A DNA stretch of 57,752 bases from Sphingobacteriales bacterium 44-15 (GTDB lineage Bacteria > Bacteroidota > Bacteroidia > Chitinophagales > Chitinophagaceae), in assembly GCA_001899685.1 (NCBI GenBank), contig MKWG01000037.1, forward strand, positions 64,010 to 121,761. The letters run 5' to 3'. Position 1 is the first letter of the stretch; every line of letters starts with the position of its first letter. Below the pieces are notes generated by a model that worked only from the letters and a program-made list of their open reading frames with translations, ran no database searches and was not told the origin of the DNA. The translations under genes and the position numbers were made by a program. Positions 9,763 through 19,978 of the stretch are shown here, piece after piece.

Positions 9763-11466
9763 TTAATATACATCCAGCAGGTACCTGCCTTCTTCCCTGA
9801 GCTTATCAAGGTATGCCTGCGCTTCCGCCACAGTTTTACCCCCATACCGCTCAATGACCTGCAACAATGTATTTTCAACATCGGTGCTCATCGGCGCCTT
9901 TGCACCGCATATATATATATAGCTTCCCTCTTCTATCCAGTTCCACAGCGCTGCAGCCTGCTCCAGCATCTTATGCTGCACATACAGCTTCGATTTCTGA
10001 TCACGGGAAAACGCGAGGTTAACTCTTGTCAGCACTCCTGTATCTGCCCAGTTCTGTATTTCTGTCTGGTAAAGAAAATCCGAAGTGAAGCGCTGATCGC
10101 CAAAGAAAAGCCAGTTGCGCCCGGTAGCGCCTACTGCATCCCTCTCTGCAATAAATGAACGGAAAGGAGCGATACCCGTTCCCGGCCCGATCATGATCAC
10201 GTCCTTATCCGGCGCGGGCAATTTGAACTGGCTGTTTTTGTGAACATAAAATTCTACGGCGGTATCCACTCCTAATTGTGAGAGATAATCTGAGCACAGT
10301 CCGTATTTGATCTCATTATTTATGCTAAACTTATCCCTTGCCACTGTAATATGCACCTCGCCGCTATGCGCTTCAGGCGATGAAGAAACGGAATATAATC
10401 TTGGCGCCATCGGTTCCAGCACCTTAAGCACTTCTCCAAATTGCGCTGCATCTTTCACAGGGTATATCCGCAGGAGATCCAGCAGGTCAATCCGGGTATC
10501 AGGGATCTCCTGCTGCACAATGGCCGCATATTGCTTTACTACTCTTTCGGGAAGATGAATAATATTTATTTTAGAAGTCAGCGCTTCAGCAATAGTATAT
10601 TTTTCTTTCCTGAATTCAATAAGAGCATCACCATCTGCGCCTGTTACGGCCAAGATGGCTTCTACGGTCTCTTTTTTATTACGCGGAATAAAACCTATAG
10701 AATCTCCCGGCTCATAATGAAGCTCGCCATCCACCCCTATTTCAATATGATGTGTTTGCTTGTTGGAGTCGCGGTCATTCAGGTTCAGGTTGGTAAGGAT
10801 CGTGCCGGTATAATTTTTCTTGCCCTTTGAAGGTTTTGCTACAGGCGCCGGGGATGCGCTGCTGCCACCGGTACTCAGCGACCGCATCACCTGCGAAAAC
10901 CAGGCCGCAGCATCTTCAGCATAATCCGTATCACATTTTTGTAAGGGAACAACACATTTAGCGCCCAGTTTTGTCAACTGCGCATCTACGTCTTCTCCCG
11001 CTTTACAAAATAAAGGATAGGAAGTATCCCCCAACGCCAAAACACTGTACTTCATTTTGTCGAGCGCTATATTTTGCTGGTGAATATGATCGTAAAACTT
11101 TTTTGCTGTCAGCGGGGGTTCGCCATCGCCCTGTGTGCTTATCACAAAAAAAGCATACTCTTCTTTTGCGAGATCATTGAGGCGGTACTGATCCAGTGAG
11201 GTAAGCTTAACAGTAACCCCACTCTTTTTAGCCTGCGTCGCAAATTCTGTGGCCACCTTTTTTGAATTACCGGTCTCGGTACCGTATAATATTGAAATCT
11301 TATTCACGGCAATGGCAGGTGTAGCTGCAACAGGCATTGTTGCTGCAGGATCACCTGCTTCCGCAGATACCATTCCTGCAAGAAATCCATTCATCCATAT
11401 CAGTTCTTCCCTTGAGGATTTAGTTACCAGGTCCTGAAAAACTTTTAATCTATGCTCTGCTAACAT
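9763..11466 (-). CDS. cysJ: Sulfite reductase [NADPH] flavoprotein (alpha) subunit
   Basis: Passes electrons from NADPH through FAD and FMN to CysI. The order of domains in 567 residues is a short N-terminal segment (EELIWMNGFLAGM) typical of CysJ, a flavodoxin domain beginning near residue 58 (ILYGTETGNSKKVA), an FAD-binding domain with PRLYSVSSSPEA and a GLCSDYL segment, and an NADP-binding domain (MIGPGTGIAPFRSF, YICGAK) ending in RYLLDVY, the usual C-terminus. A probable Ala/Pro-rich linker sits at about 203-212. The gene start overlaps the end of cobA by 17 bp, indicating translational coupling within the cys operon. Confidence 0.95.
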   Translation of the reverse strand: MLAEHRLKVFQDLVTKSSREELIWMNGFLAGMVSAEAGDPAATMPVAATPAIAVNKISILYGTETGNSKKVATEFATQAKKSGVTVKLTSLDQYRLNDLAKEEYAFFVISTQGDGEPPLTAKKFYDHIHQQNIALDKMKYSVLALGDTSYPLFCKAGEDVDAQLTKLGAKCVVPLQKCDTDYAEDAAAWFSQVMRSLSTGGSSASPAPVAKPSKGKKNYTGTILTNLNLNDRDSNKQTHHIEIGVDGELHYEPGDSIGFIPRNKKETVEAILAVTGADGDALIEFRKEKYTIAEALTSKINIIHLPERVVKQYAAIVQQEIPDTRIDLLDLLRIYPVKDAAQFGEVLKVLEPMAPRLYSVSSSPEAHSGEVHITVARDKFSINNEIKYGLCSDYLSQLGVDTAVEFYVHKNSQFKLPAPDKDVIMIGPGTGIAPFRSFIAERDAVGATGRNWLFFGDQRFTSDFLYQTEIQNWADTGVLTRVNLAFSRDQKSKLYVQHKMLEQAAALWNWIEEGSYIYICGAKAPMSTDVENTLLQVIERYGGKTVAEAQAYLDKLREEGRYLLDVY

Positions 11467-12298
11467 GGGCTTGCTTATTATGATTTAAATTATTTTGTAT
11501 ACCGGCCACAGGCTTGAAATAACAGGATCTGTCACTGCTGTTGGCGATCCAGCCAAACTGTTCATGCAATGCCGCAACACGGCCCACGATCACCAGCGAG
11601 GGAGATAAGAACTCCCGGCCATCCGGCTTTTCAAAATCATAGATATTAGCTGTATGCACTTGTTGCAAAGGCGTTGTAGCCTGCTCTATCACCGCAATGA
11701 ATGTATCTTCTCTTATACCATATTTTATCAGCTTGTCAACAATGCCGCCTACTGTTTCAGCCGACATATAAAACACCAGCGTATCTGTAGTAGCCGCCAG
11801 GTCTTTCCAGTAAGCATCGGGGACGATATCGGATTTATAATAAGTAAGGAATCTTACTGCAGTAGCATATCCTCTTGCGGTAAGCGGTATACCGGCATAA
11901 GCTGCGGCGCCCAACGCGGAAGTAACGCCCGGAATAATTTCATAAGGGATATTATTGTCCCTAAGCACCTGCAGTTCATCGAGGATATTTGAAAACACAG
12001 AAACGTCACCTCCCTTTAAACGCACCACCAGCTTTCCCTGCAATGCATTTTCCCTGATCAGCGCATTGATCGTTTCCTGCGGAGTGGAATTTCCCCTGCG
12101 GCATTGCTTGCCCACATAGATTATTTCAGCAGCCGGGTGAACGTACTCCTTCAATATGTCATTACTTACAAGACGGTCGGTCAATACCACTTCTGCCTGC
12201 TGCAAATAACGTGCAGCCTTCACCGTGATCAGCTCAGGATCGCCCGGGCCAGCCGCTGCAAGTATCACCTTACCTGTCATATTATTATTGATTGCCAT
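11450..12298 (-). CDS. cobA: Uroporphyrinogen-III C-methyltransferase
   Basis: SAM-dependent methylation of uroporphyrinogen III at C2 and C7 gives precorrin-2, the first dedicated step to siroheme. The 282 residues contain the family motifs AAAGPGDPELITVKA near residue 15, a VGKQCRRGN segment, VRLKGGDVSVF, and IPGVTSALGAAAYAGIPLTARG. A C-terminal tail of roughly 35 residues (after FGWIANSS) extends past the core fold and overlaps the start of cysJ by 17 bp. It supplies the substrate of the precorrin-2 dehydrogenase domain encoded two genes further on. Some databases call this gene sumT or cysG-C. Confidence 0.93.
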   Translation of the reverse strand: MAINNNMTGKVILAAAGPGDPELITVKAARYLQQAEVVLTDRLVSNDILKEYVHPAAEIIYVGKQCRRGNSTPQETINALIRENALQGKLVVRLKGGDVSVFSNILDELQVLRDNNIPYEIIPGVTSALGAAAYAGIPLTARGYATAVRFLTYYKSDIVPDAYWKDLAATTDTLVFYMSAETVGGIVDKLIKYGIREDTFIAVIEQATTPLQQVHTANIYDFEKPDGREFLSPSLVIVGRVAALHEQFGWIANSSDRSCYFKPVAGIQNNLNHNKQAHVSRA

Positions 12299-12319
12299 TT
12301 TTGATCGTCGTTTATACGT

Positions 12320-12400
12320 GTATCAGCTTTCAGCTATCAGCAGTCAGCCATCAGGTGTCTCATAGCTCACAGCCCAAAGCTCATCGCTCAGAGCTGATAC
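12320..12400. repeat. Word-repeat inverted repeat in the cysN-cobA spacer
   Basis: GTATCAGCT at 12320-12328 is a perfect complement of AGCTGATAC at 12392-12400. The interior repeats the words TCAGCTATCAGC, CAGTCAGCC and CATAGCTCACAGC. A very similar set of words occurs at 15465-15540, upstream of cysH, so these two spacers share one word family. Confidence 0.6.
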
Positions 12401-12406
12401 CTCACC

Positions 12407-13651
12407 TCACTGTATCATACAAGCCCCCACTGTCACATTGCTGGTTTCATCAATCAGTATAGCCCCGCCGCTTGCTCTCAGCGCTTTATATGTATCATGC
12501 ACTACCGGCTGCGAAGTTTTTATCACAGCTTTAATAATATCATTAAGCCCTACTTTTTCAGGAGCCGGATGCCTTTCGAGAGAATTCACATCAAGCCTGA
12601 ACTCAATATCTTTTATTACGCTTCTTACCCTTGTGCTGTTTACCTGCAGTAAATATTTATTTCCCGCAACGAGCGGCTTGCTGTCCATCCAGCACAATAG
12701 CACTTCCAGTTCACTTGTTGTTTCAGGAACATCGCTAAGGGGTACAATAACATCTCCCCTGCTGATATCTATATCGTCTTCCAGGTGAAGCACTACCGAC
12801 TGCGGTGCAAAAGCTTCATCCGTAAGACGGCCTCCGTCAATTTCAATCTCTTTAATAACAGAATGCAATCCCGAAGGCAACACGGTGACAGCATCCCCTT
12901 TTCTGAATATCCCGCTTGTGATCTTACCTGCATATCCCCTGTAATCATGAAGCTCCCCGGTTTGAGGGCGTATCACATATTGCACCGGAAAACGCGCTTT
13001 ATCAAGATTGATGGCTTTTTCCACTTTCACATTTTCAAGCAGGTGGAGCAAAGACTCTCCTTCATACCACGACAGCGCGGAAGATTTGTCTACAATATTG
13101 TCGCCTTTCAATGCGCTGATAGGTATATAGCTGACATCATTAAGGTTGAGCGCTCTTGCCAGCTCAGCATATTCAATAACGATATTATTATAAACGTCCT
13201 GGGAATAATCTACAAGGTCCATTTTGTTGACAGCAACAACCACCTGCGGCATATTAAGCAATGAAGCAATAATGGAATGCCTGCGGGTTTGTTCTACCAC
13301 CCCGTTCCTTGCATCTATAAGTATAATGATAAGATCAGAATTGGAAGCCCCTGTTACCATATTCCTCGTATACTGAATATGCCCCGGGGCATCGGCGATG
13401 ATAAATTTACGTTTTGGCGTGGAAAAATATTTATAAGCAACATCAATAGTAATGCCCTGTTCTCTTTCGGCCCGCAAACCGTCTGTAAGCAATGCAAGGT
13501 CAATTTCCCCGTCTTCCCTGTTCTTTGTTTGCCTTTCTATCGCCTCCAGTTGATCCACCATTATGCTCTTGCTGTCAAACAGCAGTCGCCCTATAAGCGT
13601 GCTTTTCCCATCATCCACACTTCCGGCAGTTATAAATCGCAGTATGTCCAT
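12407..13651 (-). CDS. cysN: Sulfate adenylyltransferase subunit 1 (GTPase)
   Basis: GTP hydrolysis by CysN drives formation of adenylyl sulfate (APS) by CysD. G motifs are clear in the 414-residue protein: GSVDDGKSTLIGRLL (P-loop, residues 10-24), DAPGHIQYTRNM (G3) and NKMD (G4), followed by two EF-Tu-like beta-barrel domains. It is shorter than enterobacterial CysN and has no fused APS kinase (CysC) domain, consistent with an APS-using CysH in the same operon. It lies 67 bp downstream of cysD. Confidence 0.95.
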   Translation of the reverse strand: MDILRFITAGSVDDGKSTLIGRLLFDSKSIMVDQLEAIERQTKNREDGEIDLALLTDGLRAEREQGITIDVAYKYFSTPKRKFIIADAPGHIQYTRNMVTGASNSDLIIILIDARNGVVEQTRRHSIIASLLNMPQVVVAVNKMDLVDYSQDVYNNIVIEYAELARALNLNDVSYIPISALKGDNIVDKSSALSWYEGESLLHLLENVKVEKAINLDKARFPVQYVIRPQTGELHDYRGYAGKITSGIFRKGDAVTVLPSGLHSVIKEIEIDGGRLTDEAFAPQSVVLHLEDDIDISRGDVIVPLSDVPETTSELEVLLCWMDSKPLVAGNKYLLQVNSTRVRSVIKDIEFRLDVNSLERHPAPEKVGLNDIIKAVIKTSQPVVHDTYKALRASGGAILIDETSNVTVGACMIQ

Positions 13652-13718
13652 TTAAAGTTTTTTGTTTGTAGTTTATTGTTTCCCCTTACACCCTATACCT
13701 TACACCTTATACCCTTTT

Positions 13719-14627
13719 TTAAAAATACCCGTTCTTCTTCCTGTCTTCCATGGCTGCTTCAGATACTTTATCGTCAATTCTTGTTTCACCGCGCTCGCTG
13801 GTTTTAGTAGCGATGATCTCGCTGATGATGCCATCTATGGTATCTGCTTCAGATGCAACGGCAGCGGTACAGGTCATATCGCCCACTGTCCTGTAGCGCA
13901 CTTTTCTCCTGCTGATGATGTCTGTATCGTCTATGCGAATAAATTCAGATACTGCAACAAACTGTCCTTCATATTCCACCACCTCACGTTCGTGTGCGAA
14001 GTATATGGAAGGAAGATCAATTTTTTCGCGGCGTATATAGTTCCAGATATCCAGCTCAGTCCAGTTGCTGATAGGAAATACCCGAACGTTCTCTCCTTTA
14101 TTGATCTTACCGTTATAAGTACTCCACAATTCAGGGCGCTGGCGTTTAGGATCCCACTGTCCGAACTCATCGCGCACAGAAAAGATCCTTTCCTTAGCTC
14201 TTGCCTTTTCTTCATCTCTCCTCGCACCGCCAATGCAGGCATCAAAGCCAAATTCTTCTATAGTATCCAGCAAAGTATAGGTCTGCAGCTGGTTGCGGCT
14301 GGCGAATTTTCCTTTCTGCTCGGTAAGCTTTCTTTCCCGGATCGTATCTTCTACTTTTCTTACTACCAGCTTCTCGTCAATGCGTTGTACAAGAAGATCG
14401 CGGAACTCCAGCGCTTCGGGAAAGTTGTGCCCGGTATCAATATGTACCAAAGGGAAAGGAAATTTCCCCGGGCGAAAAGCCTTTAATGCGAGATGAACCA
14501 GTACAATAGAATCTTTCCCCCCGCTAAACAGCAATGCAGGCTTTTCAAACTGCCCTGCCACTTCCCGGAAAATATGAATAGACTCCGATTCCAGCTCGTC
14601 TAAATAATCAAGATGATGTAAGCTCAT
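13719..14627 (-). CDS. cysD: Sulfate adenylyltransferase subunit 2
   Basis: Catalytic partner of CysN that adenylates sulfate with ATP. The 302 residues contain the PP-loop signature LFSGGKDSIVLVHLALK near residue 33, then HIDTGHNFPEALEFRD and ACIGGARRDEEKARAKERIFS, and the standard ending EDRKKNGYF. Length and motifs match CysD throughout. It is the second gene of the minus-strand sulfur operon, between cysH and cysN. Confidence 0.96.
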   Translation of the reverse strand: MSLHHLDYLDELESESIHIFREVAGQFEKPALLFSGGKDSIVLVHLALKAFRPGKFPFPLVHIDTGHNFPEALEFRDLLVQRIDEKLVVRKVEDTIRERKLTEQKGKFASRNQLQTYTLLDTIEEFGFDACIGGARRDEEKARAKERIFSVRDEFGQWDPKRQRPELWSTYNGKINKGENVRVFPISNWTELDIWNYIRREKIDLPSIYFAHEREVVEYEGQFVAVSEFIRIDDTDIISRRKVRYRTVGDMTCTAAVASEADTIDGIISEIIATKTSERGETRIDDKVSEAAMEDRKKNGYF

Positions 14628-14643
14628 TTATTAAATAATTTGA

Positions 14644-14677
14644 AGTTTGTGGTTTATGGTTTCGTAAACCGCAAACT
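14644..14677. repeat. Inverted repeat in the cysH-cysD spacer
   Basis: AGTTTGTGGTTTA at 14644-14656 pairs over 13 positions, one of them G-U, with TAAACCGCAAACT at 14665-14677 around an 8-nt loop. Further AAACTATAAACT words follow to 14700. There is no T-run in either direction, so simple termination is unlikely. Confidence 0.55.
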
Positions 14678-14691
14678 CTATAAACGATAAA

Positions 14692-15426
14692 CTATAAACT
14701 TTTAACCTCCTCATGCACATGCAACCCACACTCCTTCTTAGAAGCGTCTTCCCACCACCATCTTCCGGCTCTGAAATCCTCACCGGGGCGGATGGCCCTT
14801 GTGCAGGGTGCACATCCTATACTTACAAAGCCTTTATCGTGTAAAGGATTGTAGGGAATATTATTGTTATTGATAAATGCAATTGTTTCATCGGTTGTCC
14901 AATGCAGGATCGGGTGGTACTTCACCACATTATTGGAACCATCCCATTCTACCTGTGTCATATCATGACGGTTAGGCGAATGCTCTGCACGGATACCGGT
15001 GATCCATACTTTTTTCCCTTTTAATGCCCTTTGCAGGGGTTCCACTTTTCGGATATGGCAGCACTGTTTCCTGTTCTCTACGGATTCATAAAAACTGTTG
15101 GGACCTTTTTCAGCCACAAAATGCTGCAATGCAGCCGCATCAGGGTAATAGGCTGTTATAGTATGATTGTATTTTTCCAGCGTGCGGCTCCAGGTAGAAT
15201 AGGTTTCGGGGAACAGGCGACCTGTATCAAGTGTGAATACGTCAATAGCCAGCCCCTGGCTGAATATGATGTGCGCAATAGCCTGGTCTTCCCAGCTAAA
15301 GCTGGTAGAAAAAACTACCTGCCCCGGGAATTCCGATGCAATATTCCCAAGGCTCGCGGCAATATCTCCTTCTGCAATTAATGCGGAAATCCTCTGTATT
15401 TCGCTTTGTGGTTCCTTCTGGCTCAT
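14692..15426 (-). CDS. cysH: Adenylyl-sulfate (APS/PAPS) reductase
   Basis: Reduces activated sulfate to sulfite with thioredoxin. The 244-residue protein has the PP-loop-like VFSTSFSWEDQAI segment, LDTGRLFPETY, RKQCCHIRKVEPL and GCAPCTRAI, and the C-terminal KKECGLH with the catalytic Cys. The CC plus CxxC arrangement is that of the [4Fe-4S] APS reductases, and no APS kinase gene is present in the operon, so APS is the likely substrate. It is the first gene of the minus-strand cys operon. A -7-like TATCTTTG lies about 165 bp upstream, leaving a long leader that includes an inverted repeat. Confidence 0.94.
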   Translation of the reverse strand: MSQKEPQSEIQRISALIAEGDIAASLGNIASEFPGQVVFSTSFSWEDQAIAHIIFSQGLAIDVFTLDTGRLFPETYSTWSRTLEKYNHTITAYYPDAAALQHFVAEKGPNSFYESVENRKQCCHIRKVEPLQRALKGKKVWITGIRAEHSPNRHDMTQVEWDGSNNVVKYHPILHWTTDETIAFINNNNIPYNPLHDKGFVSIGCAPCTRAIRPGEDFRAGRWWWEDASKKECGLHVHEEVKSL

Positions 15427-15598: not shown

Positions 15599-15646
15599 AT
15601 GACTAAAATTTAAGTTTTCCATTTTTTTTGTTCCTTCACATATTTT

Positions 15647-15679
15647 TTTGAAAATATGGGGTATTTACTATTACCTTTG
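15647..15679 (+). promoter_or_regulatory. Promoter of the SAM-riboswitch transcript
   Basis: TTTG at 15647-15650 and TACCTTTG at 15672-15679 with a 21-nt spacer fit the Bacteroidota -33/-7 consensus exactly. The predicted transcription start near 15685 is 15-20 nt upstream of the riboswitch P1 helix, as expected. Confidence 0.72.
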
Positions 15680-15702
15680 CGCCAGTTCTTTTAATGATAT
15701 TC

Positions 15703-15822
15703 ACTTATCAAGAAAGGCTGAGGGACTGGCCCGATGAAGCCTTGACAACCTGTTCCGTGCCGCAACACAGCGGTATGGGGAAAGGTGCCAATTCCATCAC
15801 GCTACAGGCGTGACAGATAAGT
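15703..15822 (+). promoter_or_regulatory. SAM-I (S-box) riboswitch
   Basis: S-adenosylmethionine-sensing leader RNA. P1 is formed by ACTTATC 15703-15709 and GATAAGT 15816-15822. Between them are the S-box core blocks AGGGACTGGCCCGATGAAG, TTGACAACC and GGTGCCAATTCC, which form the kink-turn, pseudoknot and SAM pocket in this family. A terminator hairpin follows 36 nt after P1. High SAM would therefore stop transcription toward metY, metX and homoserine dehydrogenase. Confidence 0.96.
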
Positions 15823-15857
15823 CAGAAGAAAAGCTGATGATAAAAGCATTAATATAT

Positions 15858-15894
15858 AAAGCTCTTCCGATGACCTGTTGGAAGAGCTTTTTTA
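15858..15894 (+). terminator. Intrinsic terminator of the SAM riboswitch expression platform
   Basis: AAAGCTCTTCC 15858-15868 and GGAAGAGCTTT 15880-15890 form a perfect 11-bp stem with an 11-nt loop, followed by TTTT. GAAGA at 15825-15829 could pair with TCTTC of the 5' arm as a short antiterminator; that pairing is inferred. Confidence 0.9.
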
Positions 15895-15965
15895 TGCCCT
15901 TACCCGCCATCTGTCCTACTGTCGTTACATGTTCCTTTCTGGTAAATGATCTTATTAATTAAAAA

Positions 15966-15998
15966 TTTTGAAAATGAGGAGAAACGAGAGTAATTTTA
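15966..15998 (+). promoter_or_regulatory. Second promoter, between the riboswitch terminator and metY
   Basis: TTTTG at 15966-15970, a 20-nt spacer and TAATTTTA at 15991-15998 (one mismatch to TAnnTTTG) resemble a Bacteroidota promoter. It would start RNA near 16004, beyond the SAM terminator and 20 nt before the Cys-rich leader ORF, so metY could be expressed independently of the riboswitch. Confidence 0.5.
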
Positions 15999-16023
15999 GC
16001 GACTGTTTTACAAGCTTCGCACA

Positions 16024-16092
16024 ATGATGCTATTAAGATACAATCCCATATTACCTGTTACATGCGGCATTTGTTGCTGTTGCATGCCGTAA
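16024..16092 (+). CDS. Poly-cysteine leader peptide (putative cysteine attenuator)
   Basis: ORF of 22 codons from ATG at 16024 (or the adjacent ATG at 16027) to TAA at 16090-16092. It begins MMLLRYNPILPV and ends TCGICCCCMP: five Cys in the last nine residues, with four consecutive Cys codons (16072-16083). It sits 100 bp before metY and about 20 nt after a plausible transcription start. The Cys codons fall in the loop of a hairpin (16063-16070 with 16084-16091). Downstream GCAACAGGT (16115-16123) can pair either with CTGTTGC in the Cys run (16077-16083) or with ACCTGTT before it (16053-16059). This is the layout of a leader peptide whose ribosome stalls when charged Cys-tRNA is scarce. No T-tract terminator follows, so the output could be Rho-dependent or translational. 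Function is inference; the ORF and pairings are visible. Confidence 0.68.
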   Translation: MMLLRYNPILPVTCGICCCCMP

Positions 16093-16132
16093 GGCATACA
16101 ATACATTCAGATCCGCAACAGGTTGTTATCTG
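16053..16132 (+). promoter_or_regulatory. Alternative RNA pairings overlapping the poly-Cys leader
   Basis: Mutually exclusive helices: 16053-16059 with 16117-16123 (ACCTGTT/AACAGGT), 16077-16083 with 16115-16121 (CTGTTGC/GCAACAG), 16063-16070 with 16084-16091 around the Cys codons, 16084-16088 with 16093-16097 (GTAA loop), and a downstream hairpin 16108-16132 (CAGAT and AACA with TGTT and ATCTG). Ribosome position on the Cys codons would decide which forms. Confidence 0.5.
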
Positions 16133-16186
16133 CAGGCGTTATGCACACTCCCGGTATCTTCTTATTCTCAACATAAAATAAAATAA

Positions 16187-17500
<1,314 letters not shown>

Positions 17501-17513
17501 CAGAGGCGGTTGC

Positions 17514-17612
17514 ACAAGTTACAAGTTGCAGGTTTCAAGTTGCAGGTTGGTCAAAAGCGGGAGGTGAGACATGAGGTTAGAGCCTGTAACCTGAAACTTG
17601 TAACCTGAAACT
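17514..17612. repeat. Word-repeat inverted repeat in the metY-metX spacer
   Basis: CAAGTTACAAGTTGCAGG-type words (17515-17547) face AACCTGAAACTTGTAACC-type words (17588-17612). A perfect 10-bp core is GTTACAAGTT 17518-17527 with AACTTGTAAC 17595-17604. It lies within a co-directional gene set. Confidence 0.6.
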
Positions 17613-17649: not shown

Positions 17650-18717
17650 ATGGCAACAGAAGTCTTTGAATATAACCAATCTTTTACGCTGGAGAATGGC
17701 AGTACATTACCAGGCTATCACCTGGCTTATACTACCCTTGGAAAGCTGAATGCAAGGAAGGATAATGTGATATGGGTTTTCCATGCGCTTACTGCGAACA
17801 GCAATCCTGCAGACTGGTGGCCGGGACTGGTAGGCGAGGGTAAATTGTTTGACCCCGGAAAATATTTCATTATCTGTGCGAATATGCCGGGAAGCTGCTA
17901 TGGCAGCATCGGCCCTCTTGAAGTGAATCCACAAACGGGAGAAAGATGGTTCCACGATTTTCCCTTATTTACTACAAGAGATATGATAAGGGCATACAAG
18001 CCTTTAAAAGATGCGCTTGGTATTGAAAACATATATATTGGTATCGGAGGTTCGATGGGAGGGCAACAATTACTGGAATGGGCAATTGAAGAACCATTGG
18101 CTTTTGATCATATCATAGCGCTTGCTACCAATGCGCAGCATTCTCCCTGGGGCATTGCGCTTAATGCTTCGCAGCGGATGTGTATTGAGACCGACAGCAC
18201 CTGGAAAGAAAAAATACAGGAAGCCGGTATAGAAGGGATGAAAGCTGCAAGAAGCATCGCATTGCTGAGCTACCGGAATTACAACACCTATAATCTTACC
18301 CAGCCGAGGGATAAAAAAACAGCATGGCCTGTTTCTCATCACTTCGGCGGTGAAGCCGCAGAAAGTTACCAGCGCTACCAGGGTGAAAAGCTGGCAAAAC
18401 GCTTTAATGCCTTCAGCTATTACAGGCTGGGGCAGGCAATGGATGCGCATGATGTCGGGCGCGGAAGAGGATCAGTAGAGCAGGCATTGGAGCGTATAAA
18501 GGCAAAAACACTGGTGATAGGGATAAGCAACGACCTGCTTTTCCCACCGGAAGAGCAAAAGAAAATTGCAGATCATGTTCCCGGCGCCAGCTATCATCTT
18601 ATTGAATCCCTGTATGGACACGATGGATTTTTACTGGAATATGATAAGATAGAAACTATTATATCAGGATTTGTCAGTGAAGAAAACAAGCGTTATTTAA
18701 AAATAGTAAATCAATAA
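17650..18717 (+). CDS. metX: Homoserine O-acetyltransferase
   Basis: Acetylates homoserine with acetyl-CoA, providing the MetY substrate. The 355-residue alpha/beta hydrolase carries the nucleophile elbow GGSMGGQQLLEWA, the Asp of ISNDLLFPPEEQ and the His of YGHDGFLLE, with the AMDAHDVGRGRG segment typical of MetX. Acetyl- rather than succinyl-transfer is inferred from the family and from MetY next door. It is 149 bp after metY and 4 bp before homoserine dehydrogenase, so substrate supply is translationally linked. Confidence 0.94.
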   Translation: MATEVFEYNQSFTLENGSTLPGYHLAYTTLGKLNARKDNVIWVFHALTANSNPADWWPGLVGEGKLFDPGKYFIICANMPGSCYGSIGPLEVNPQTGERWFHDFPLFTTRDMIRAYKPLKDALGIENIYIGIGGSMGGQQLLEWAIEEPLAFDHIIALATNAQHSPWGIALNASQRMCIETDSTWKEKIQEAGIEGMKAARSIALLSYRNYNTYNLTQPRDKKTAWPVSHHFGGEAAESYQRYQGEKLAKRFNAFSYYRLGQAMDAHDVGRGRGSVEQALERIKAKTLVIGISNDLLFPPEEQKKIADHVPGASYHLIESLYGHDGFLLEYDKIETIISGFVSEENKRYLKIVNQ

Positions 18718-18721
18718 TAAT

Positions 18722-19978
18722 ATGGAAGCGCACAGGCAGTTAAGCATCGGGCTATTCGGATTTGGCGTGGTAGGCGAAGGGCTTTACCAGGTATTGAAAC
18801 AAACGCCCTCCTTACAGGCAACCATTAAAAAAGTATGTATAAAAAATGCAGATAAGAAAAGGAATGCGCCGGCATCCTTATTTACTACCGACAGGTTTGC
18901 CCTGCTCAACGATCCTGAAATAAATGTAATTGTAGAAGTGATCAACGAATCCGGGCCAGCCTTTGAGATCGTATCCACAGCTTTAAAGAACGGTAAGGCA
19001 GTAGTTAGCGCCAGTAAAAAAATGATTGCGGAGCACCTGCCTGAAATACTGGAATTGCAGCAAAAATATAACCAGCCGTTCCTGTGTGAATCCGCAGCCT
19101 GCGCCTCTATTCCTGTAATAAGGAACCTCGAAGAATATTATGACAACGACCTGCTTCATTCCATACGCGCCATAGTGAACGGCTCAACGAATTTTATTCT
19201 CACTAAGATGTTTGAAGACAAGCTTGACTTCAAACAAGCCTTAATACTGGCCCAGCAACTGGGCTTTGCAGAAGTGGATCCCACCCTTGATGTGGATGGA
19301 TGGGATGCATTGAACAAATGGACATTCCTGCTCACCCATGCATACGGCATAGTGGAAAAGCCGGAACATATCGTGTTTAACGGCATACAGCATATCAAAC
19401 TTACCGACGCCGCTATAGCCAAAGAAAAAAACTACGAAATAAAACTGGTGGCACAGGCAAAAAAGCTGCATAATGGTAAAGTAGCCGCATTTGTGCTTCC
19501 CCAGTTTGTAAAGCATGATGACCCGCTGGCTTTTGTAAAAAATGAATTTAACGGCGTTGTGATCGAAAGCTCCTTTGCCGACAAGCAGTTTTTTTACGGT
19601 AAGGGCGCAGGAAGCTTCCCTACCGCCTCTGCCGTACTGAGCGATATTTCAGCGCTGCGCTACGACTACCGCTACGAATATAAAAAACTATATCACCACC
19701 AGCCACAGCAGCTTACCGATGATTTCTATGTACGCACCTATGTAAGCTTCGACGACTGGAAAACCATACCCCGCGACAAATTTGAATGGATAGAAGAATG
19801 GCATGCAGGAGAACGCAAATATCTCGTTGGCGTGCTCCCTTTTAAAGAGCTGAAAGAAAACAACTGGTGGAAAGAAAACAATGTTTCTCTTATTCTTGCC
19901 CCGGATGCTATTATTGAAGACATTGAAATAAGGAAACTTAAAAAGAAAAGCCTGGAGCTGGCGGGAATAATGGATTAA
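18722..19978 (+). CDS. hom: Homoserine dehydrogenase
   Basis: NAD(P)-dependent reduction of aspartate semialdehyde to homoserine. The 418 residues contain GFGVVGEG at about 13-20, VSASKKMIAEHLPEI with a conserved Lys, CESAACASIPVIR, IVNGSTNFILTKM and EVDPTLDVDGWDALNKWTF with the catalytic Asp/Lys region. It is monofunctional: there is no aspartokinase domain and no recognisable ACT repeat, so feedback inhibition may be absent and control left to the SAM and Cys leaders upstream. It starts 4 bp after metX, the last gene of the methionine branch. Confidence 0.93.
   Translation: MEAHRQLSIGLFGFGVVGEGLYQVLKQTPSLQATIKKVCIKNADKKRNAPASLFTTDRFALLNDPEINVIVEVINESGPAFEIVSTALKNGKAVVSASKKMIAEHLPEILELQQKYNQPFLCESAACASIPVIRNLEEYYDNDLLHSIRAIVNGSTNFILTKMFEDKLDFKQALILAQQLGFAEVDPTLDVDGWDALNKWTFLLTHAYGIVEKPEHIVFNGIQHIKLTDAAIAKEKNYEIKLVAQAKKLHNGKVAAFVLPQFVKHDDPLAFVKNEFNGVVIESSFADKQFFYGKGAGSFPTASAVLSDISALRYDYRYEYKKLYHHQPQQLTDDFYVRTYVSFDDWKTIPRDKFEWIEEWHAGERKYLVGVLPFKELKENNWWKENNVSLILAPDAIIEDIEIRKLKKKSLELAGIMD

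Follow-up and report, generated by a model that had tools for sequence, protein, structure and literature searches.

Upstream of metY, in the 57,752-nucleotide stretch of DNA analysed here (the window), lies a short ORF whose peptide ends in a run of cysteines. Does this ORF sense cysteine on behalf of metY, and by what step would it act on the gene? Our best reading, which we consider probable, is that the ORF encodes a cysteine-sensing leader peptide and acts on metY in cis by ribosome-mediated cysteine attenuation. The features of the region are collected in Table 1.

Table 1. Elements of the metY leader and of the genes that follow it in the window.
Feature	Position	Strand	Details
SAM-I riboswitch aptamer, 5' of the leader	15702..15823	+	RF00162, 80.2 bits against a gathering threshold of 44.4; model positions 1-108 of 108
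SAM riboswitch terminator	15860..15893	+	AGCTCTTCC...GGAAGAGCT then TTTTT; by eye from the sequence
Bacteroidota-type promoter for the leader	15968..15998	+	TTG (15968-15970), TAATTTTA (15991-15998); sequence element
Candidate cysteine leader ORF	16024..16092	+	22 codons, MMLLRYNPILPVTCGICCCCMP then stop; peptide end TCGICCCCMP
Pairing of the original prediction	16053..16123	+	16053-16059 with 16115-16123; predicted fold of the window
Cys codons, C14 and C17-C20 of the leader peptide	16063..16083	+	
Hairpin P1	16084..16097	+	ATGCC[GTAA]GGCAT, loop holds the stop codon; folding
metY, O-acetylhomoserine sulfhydrylase family	16193..17500	+	TIGR01326, 684.8 bits, cut-off 495.1
metX-like homoserine O-acetyltransferase	17650..18717	+	TIGR01392, 344.5 bits, below the cut-off of 500; probably metY operon
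Homoserine dehydrogenase	18722..19978	+	NF004976, 307.4 bits, cut-off 205; probably metY operon

The ORF was found at 16024-16092 just as the original prediction had described it, and Cys makes up five of the final nine residues of its peptide, four of them consecutive. The elements of the window follow one another in the order SAM riboswitch, its terminator, promoter, leader ORF, metY, metX-like gene and homoserine dehydrogenase gene. That is, an aptamer with its own terminator and a leader with its own promoter stand in series, and metY starts 100 nt 3' of the leader stop codon. The promoter was called against what we take to be the Bacteroidota consensus. MetY acts in sulfur assimilation to homocysteine, and its link to cysteine runs through a cystathionine beta-synthase-like gene of the same genome, named by eye from a PF00291 match. 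The genome also carries a cysE-like gene (154.9 bits, under the TIGR01172 cut-off) beside a cysM-like gene (PF00291, named by eye). These two genes are adjacent at G000:C46:63606-64972 (L273, L284), and no Cys-run ORF was found 5' of the pair. Elsewhere in the window, positions 11450-15426 of the minus strand hold genes for cysH, cysD, cysN and uroporphyrinogen-III methyltransferase, which diverge from metY and all score above their NCBIfam cut-offs. The interval 17513-17610 between metY and metX is repetitive, containing TTACAAGTTGCAGGTTTCAAGTTGCAGG and its near reverse complement.

We then asked whether the ORF recurs in relatives. In a first set of 58 genomes including our own, 57 had some metY-like match. 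Within the genus of the window, a close metY orthologue was present in 10 of the 11 other genomes, and nine of these 10 relatives had an ATG-started ORF with a Cys cluster at the same place before metY (for example MVPVNNNNKFYYNAILRVCCCCCMP, then stop). One metY locus of the genus (L005) keeps the SAM riboswitch and the terminator and has no Cys-cluster ORF. Of 294 Chitinophagaceae genomes drawn, again including our own, 134 had a strong metY. The DNA 5' of the gene was collected for these except in four cases, in three of which metY was partial and in one of which it lay at a contig edge. Pooled with the first set, these made 145 loci, 144 of them usable (L116 was too short), a few of which represent only a distant metY relative. 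An ORF was counted when it had at least three Cys including CC, an ATG start, and an end at least 55 nt before metY. Such an ORF was found in 74 of the 144 loci, compared to a mean of 3.3 and a maximum of 8 in 30 dinucleotide shuffles and to 1/143 in a control window 400-730 nt upstream. By a stricter rule (CCC or CC.CC), the count was 64/144, against 0.2 in 10 shuffles and 0/143 in the window further upstream. On the reverse strand of the 144 leader regions, with no limit set on the end, 20/144 passed by the first rule and 5/144 by the stricter one. Some of the 74 passing loci looked doubtful by eye (L074, L106, L110, L117), and roughly half of the family loci examined lack the leader ORF. 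Judged by this sequence comparison, the ORF of the window is real and not a chance product.

The peptide tail tends to C-C-x-C-C-M-P, and the N-terminal sequence and the length before the Cys cluster vary. The Cys codons are mixed: the 62 strong ORFs among 135 family loci contain 233 TGT and 81 TGC. Two ORF-less loci (L025, L031) had been excluded from that set by an id cut. A poly-TGY string was also tried as a genome-wide marker; it had 124 matches in our own genome and was dropped as non-discriminating.

The surroundings of the ORF recur as well. The element TAnnTTT[GA] was found at most 26 nt from an in-frame ATG in 48 of the 62 strong Chitinophagaceae ORFs, compared to a mean of 4.1 and a maximum of 9 in shuffles. 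From the -7 element to the ATG there are 25 nt in the window and 7-19 nt, often 7-9, in many relatives, as read from the sequence. Bacteroidota largely lack Shine-Dalgarno signals. Directly 3' of the Cys codons, the hairpin P1 (ATGCC[GTAA]GGCAT or a variant) had a predicted energy at or below -4 kcal/mol in 57 of the 74 loci. The 36-nt window that holds P1 folded at -8.6 kcal/mol in the 74 family loci versus -4.2 kcal/mol for shuffles, with 42 of the 74 at p ≤ 0.05; the signal was weak in 21 loci of other groups (3/21 at p ≤ 0.05). Where the P1 loop has four bases, it is GNRA in 35 of 40 cases. When 57 distinct sequences were aligned in a fixed register, 59% of the positions formed standard pairs, compared to a shuffle mean of 50% (maximum 53%) and to 29-41% in slid registers. 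Covariation gave no such excess in P1, since the 31 double changes lay within the range of the slid registers (21-32), and clean compensations in this set were limited to L048 and L059.

We also scanned 84,980 species genomes for the exact pattern of a Cys-Cys-Met-Pro tail with its hairpin. There were 51 matches, against a rough chance expectation of about 7 in total, and in 44 of them metY lay 100-140 nt past the motif start. Of the remainder, three were cut by a contig end (L225, L235, L252) and four had no metY (L238, L240, L248, L268). The hosts include Terrimonas ferruginea DSM 30193, Parafilimonas terrae DSM 28286, Lacibacter luteus, Lacibacter cauensis and Flavisolibacter ginsengisoli DSM 18119, and such named hosts make the system open to experiment. 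A similar pattern run over 396 genomes of the window's order gave 17 matches, 15 of which (our own included) had metY; L178 and L192 did not.

The original prediction had further proposed that a block downstream of the ORF can pair with alternative segments of the ORF. The segment 16024-16132 does have a marked predicted fold (-33.4 kcal/mol, z -3.47, none of 200 shuffles as good), in which ACCTGTT (16053-16059) pairs with GCAACAGGT (16115-16123) and encloses the Cys codons. In the nine same-genus leaders that bear the ORF, however, the corresponding [AG]CAACA was absent downstream in all nine, and the duplex of ORF and downstream block in the window reached p = 0.07 against shuffles. Thus, of the conservation that the original prediction had called for, the Cys tail recurs in relatives but the pairing is missing even in the genus. 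The pairing is a strong part of the predicted fold of the window and may be a local elaboration of it. Across the leaders compared, the recurring predicted structure is P1, which is distinct from that pairing.

How, then, would the position of a ribosome on the ORF reach metY? As originally noted, no T-tract terminator was found in a scan of 15600-16250, a scan whose loop limit also misses the SAM riboswitch terminator at 15860-15893. When the leaders were folded with a ribosome placed at either the Cys codons or the stop, no general switch appeared among 64 Chitinophagaceae leaders. The stretch after the ORF was slightly more paired with the ribosome on the Cys codons (mean difference 0.02, p 0.0003); in the window alone, its pairing went from 0.74 with the ribosome at the stop to 0.54 with the ribosome at Cys. 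An antiterminator sought across mixed families, in 14 of 15 listed loci (L023 was dropped because its ORF does not fit the rule), gave a Fisher p of 0.18; L022 and L205 (p 0.013) alone passed, and L028 had p 0.063. None was found in the terminator-bearing Parafilimonas-type leaders L016, L034, L036 and L048. A loose scan for intrinsic terminators gave a weak signal, with 38/92 ORF-bearing loci compared to 13-21 in five shuffles and 27/81 ORF-less loci. For the window itself, no antiterminator and terminator that exclude each other emerged from the terminator scan, the pairing conservation or the ribosome-placed folding. The segment that follows the ORF had C 0.22 and G 0.10 in the 74 family loci, compared to C 0.20 and G 0.11 in 59 ORF-less family metY loci and C 0.14 and G 0.10 in five loci of family f19, described below. 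That is, it is more C-rich and G-poor than the ORF-less loci (p 2e-5) and than the f19 leaders (p 6e-4). Such a composition fits the action of Rho, with which it is compatible without demonstrating it.

The lack of a terminator in the window would also suit the same sensor with a translational output, in which the position of the ribosome governs access to the metY start, as in mycobacteria, where cysteine genes are under translation attenuation according to one report (PMC13236596). We think this unlikely here. In the 64 leaders, access to the metY start barely changes, with an unpaired fraction of 0.58 (ribosome on Cys) versus 0.57 (on stop) on average (p 0.04), and sequestering of the start was rejected as a candidate on these values; moreover, about 100 nt separate the ORF stop from metY in the window.

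The predicted arrangement, in which a poly-Cys leader ORF and a promoter dedicated to it precede metY, recurs across Chitinophagaceae and also in other families of Bacteroidia. A class-wide draw of 198 genomes contained 28 strong metY genes besides our own, and 17 of these 28 loci had the ORF by the first rule, although L217 and L219 look spurious; L213 and L216 have long terminal Cys clusters that fall just outside the rule. In family f19, which belongs to the same order as the window, 11 of 13 genomes have metY. Among the 10 f19 leaders with sufficient DNA (L296 was too short), five end in CCCC (L022, L290, L291, L292, L298), two have CC only (L294, L295), one has single Cys (L297) and two have none (L289, L293). 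In all eight f19 leaders tested, L294, L295 and L297 among them, a U-tract terminator is present whose 5' arm pairs with an earlier segment of the leader. This antiterminator segment begins 0-14 nt before the stop codon, each leader giving p 0.001-0.029 within a set of related sequences, and the matched duplexes had a mean of -13.3 kcal/mol versus -10.0 kcal/mol for mismatched ones. The segment would be masked by a ribosome that has reached the stop codon and would stay accessible if the ribosome had stalled at the Cys codons. This geometry has the logic of attenuation, and it suggests the sign of the control, namely that low cysteine turns metY on. The ribosome-stalling attenuation of the original prediction thus finds an attenuator architecture in f19, but no general switch was seen in the folding of the 64 Chitinophagaceae leaders.

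The opposite sign, in which low cysteine would lower metY and save sulfide for cysteine synthesis, seems to us quite improbable. The cysE-like, cysM-like and beta-synthase-like genes of the genome would make metY a competitor for sulfide, but stalling would free the antiterminator and give read-through in f19 and in L205, and homocysteine from MetY can itself be turned into cysteine through beta-synthase. It is very unlikely that the ORF encodes a working small Cys-rich protein with no sensor role; Cys clusters can bind metals, but the sequence and length before the cluster are unconserved, and the ORF and terminator of f19 fit attenuation. Least credible of all is that only the RNA hairpin has a role and that its letters yield the Cys codons as a by-product: the Met-Pro of the tail does coincide with a hairpin arm, but the Cys runs are for the most part located 5' of P1, combine TGT with TGC, and persist in f19 and f61 despite different flanking RNA.

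Cysteine attenuation at metY can be considered as follows. With charged tRNA-Cys in short supply, the ribosome would stall on the Cys codons and transcription would continue through metY; with ample cysteine, the ribosome would reach the stop codon and transcription would end in the leader. In f19, a classical antiterminator and terminator pair can carry out this step. In the family of the window, which has no T tract, we speculate that Rho takes over this role by terminating transcription in the C-rich, G-poor segment 3' of the ORF and that P1 serves as a pause or coupling hairpin; this is the least certain part of the scheme. By comparison across genomes, the arrangement is a short ORF with a C-terminal Cys cluster that lies close behind its own promoter and stops about 100 nt short of metY, P1 following the Cys codons; its translation, the stalling and the direction of regulation are what we infer from that arrangement.

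The SAM riboswitch may add a second input. In family f61 (order of genome G738), metY was present in 138 of 151 genomes; 30 of these loci, together with four from the class draw, made up a set of 34. By a sequence pattern, the last helix of a SAM-I aptamer lay 7-11 nt before the leader ATG in 30 of the 34, and the pattern was unmatched in the other four. In 22 of those 30, the ORF had at least three Cys including CC, and by another rule a Cys-run ORF was present in 26 of the 34 loci. Rfam confirmed RF00162 in all 20 loci submitted (15 of the 34 from f61 and five from Chitinophagaceae). Among the 74 ORF-bearing Chitinophagaceae loci, the aptamer was found in at least 21, with a search pattern that does not detect the aptamer of the window. 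Since the f61 helix ends 7-11 nt before the ATG with no terminator between, SAM would gate translation of the leader ORF. It is quite possible, a little short of probable, that Bacteroidia place metY under a two-input RNA control in which a SAM-I aptamer is combined with a cysteine leader peptide, and that in f61 SAM gates translation of the sensor ORF. If true, this would amount to a novel type of composite regulator, a riboswitch that controls a leader peptide.

The two elements are not always together. Six metY loci of the family (L042, L046, L051, L077, L095, L098) lack the Cys leader but possess a SAM riboswitch that has an intrinsic terminator; the SAM and Cys controls can therefore occur separately. 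In eight f61 loci (L303, L304, L307, L309, L312, L317, L318, L324) and in L026, L204 and L215, the ORF beside the aptamer has lost most or all of its Cys. These ORFs keep RMR, encoded by CGAATGCG, which lies inside the ORF in L307 and L215 and at its end in the others, and in the f61 loci of this type an AGTCGTC...GACGACC pairing seems to come after the ORF. Another sensor or structure may have taken over in these leaders. By eye, f61 leaders (for example L300, L311, L319, L323) show two hairpins 3' of the ORF, whose stems vary on both sides between species (ACACG...CGTGT, GCACGCC...GGCGTG, ACATCAC...GTGATG); RNAalifold on 18 f61 leaders gave no consensus structure.

Poly-Cys leader ORFs of Actinobacteria are reportedly the subject of work by Canestrari in 2020. 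In mycobacteria, the poly-Cys leaderless uORF is closely coupled in translation to the next gene, and the window differs from this in its 100-nt gap. Cysteine leader peptides have so far been placed in Actinobacteria and Rhodobacterales. Our literature search found no description of one in Bacteroidota; it covered main texts, and supplementary files could list one. For this phylum, PMC9723704 gives strong clues for leader-peptide attenuation 5' of amino-acid operons in a Flavobacterium, and PMC7366714 describes short ORFs within long leaders in Bacteroides. If our reading is true, these leaders lend themselves to comparison, since a SAM riboswitch or an intrinsic terminator is present in some and missing in others and the aptamer can also lie beside the ORF start, and they would show one sensor retained while the output stage is rebuilt.

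According to the 2005 report (PMC1262725), the actinobacterial ORFs resemble that of the window in having a run of Cys codons near the stop codon, a sulfur gene downstream, a start near the promoter and no clear terminator, Rho having been suggested there. Compared with that account, the present leader differs in its phylum, in preceding metY instead of a cys operon or cbs, in a stop about 100 nt from the gene, in the hairpin P1, and in the SAM-I aptamer that is joined to it in f61. The SAM-I riboswitch (RF00162) itself lies likewise upstream in the window and in the family loci counted above, and the f61 copy departs from this in adjoining the start of the leader ORF without a terminator of its own. 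The uORFC-8-2 motif 5' of cysS in Rhodobacterales, for which PMC8632094 proposes ribosome-mediated attenuation, shares a short Cys-codon ORF with the window; its model there has two Cys codons, cysS and a U-tract terminator, in contrast to metY and no U tract in the window, and the f19 leaders are like it in having a U tract. Finally, the f19 leaders resemble the classical attenuators of the trp and his type in their regulatory codons, in an antiterminator segment near the stop codon and in their terminator. The window differs from these attenuators, as do most Chitinophagaceae leaders, in having neither a recognisable antiterminator nor a U tract.
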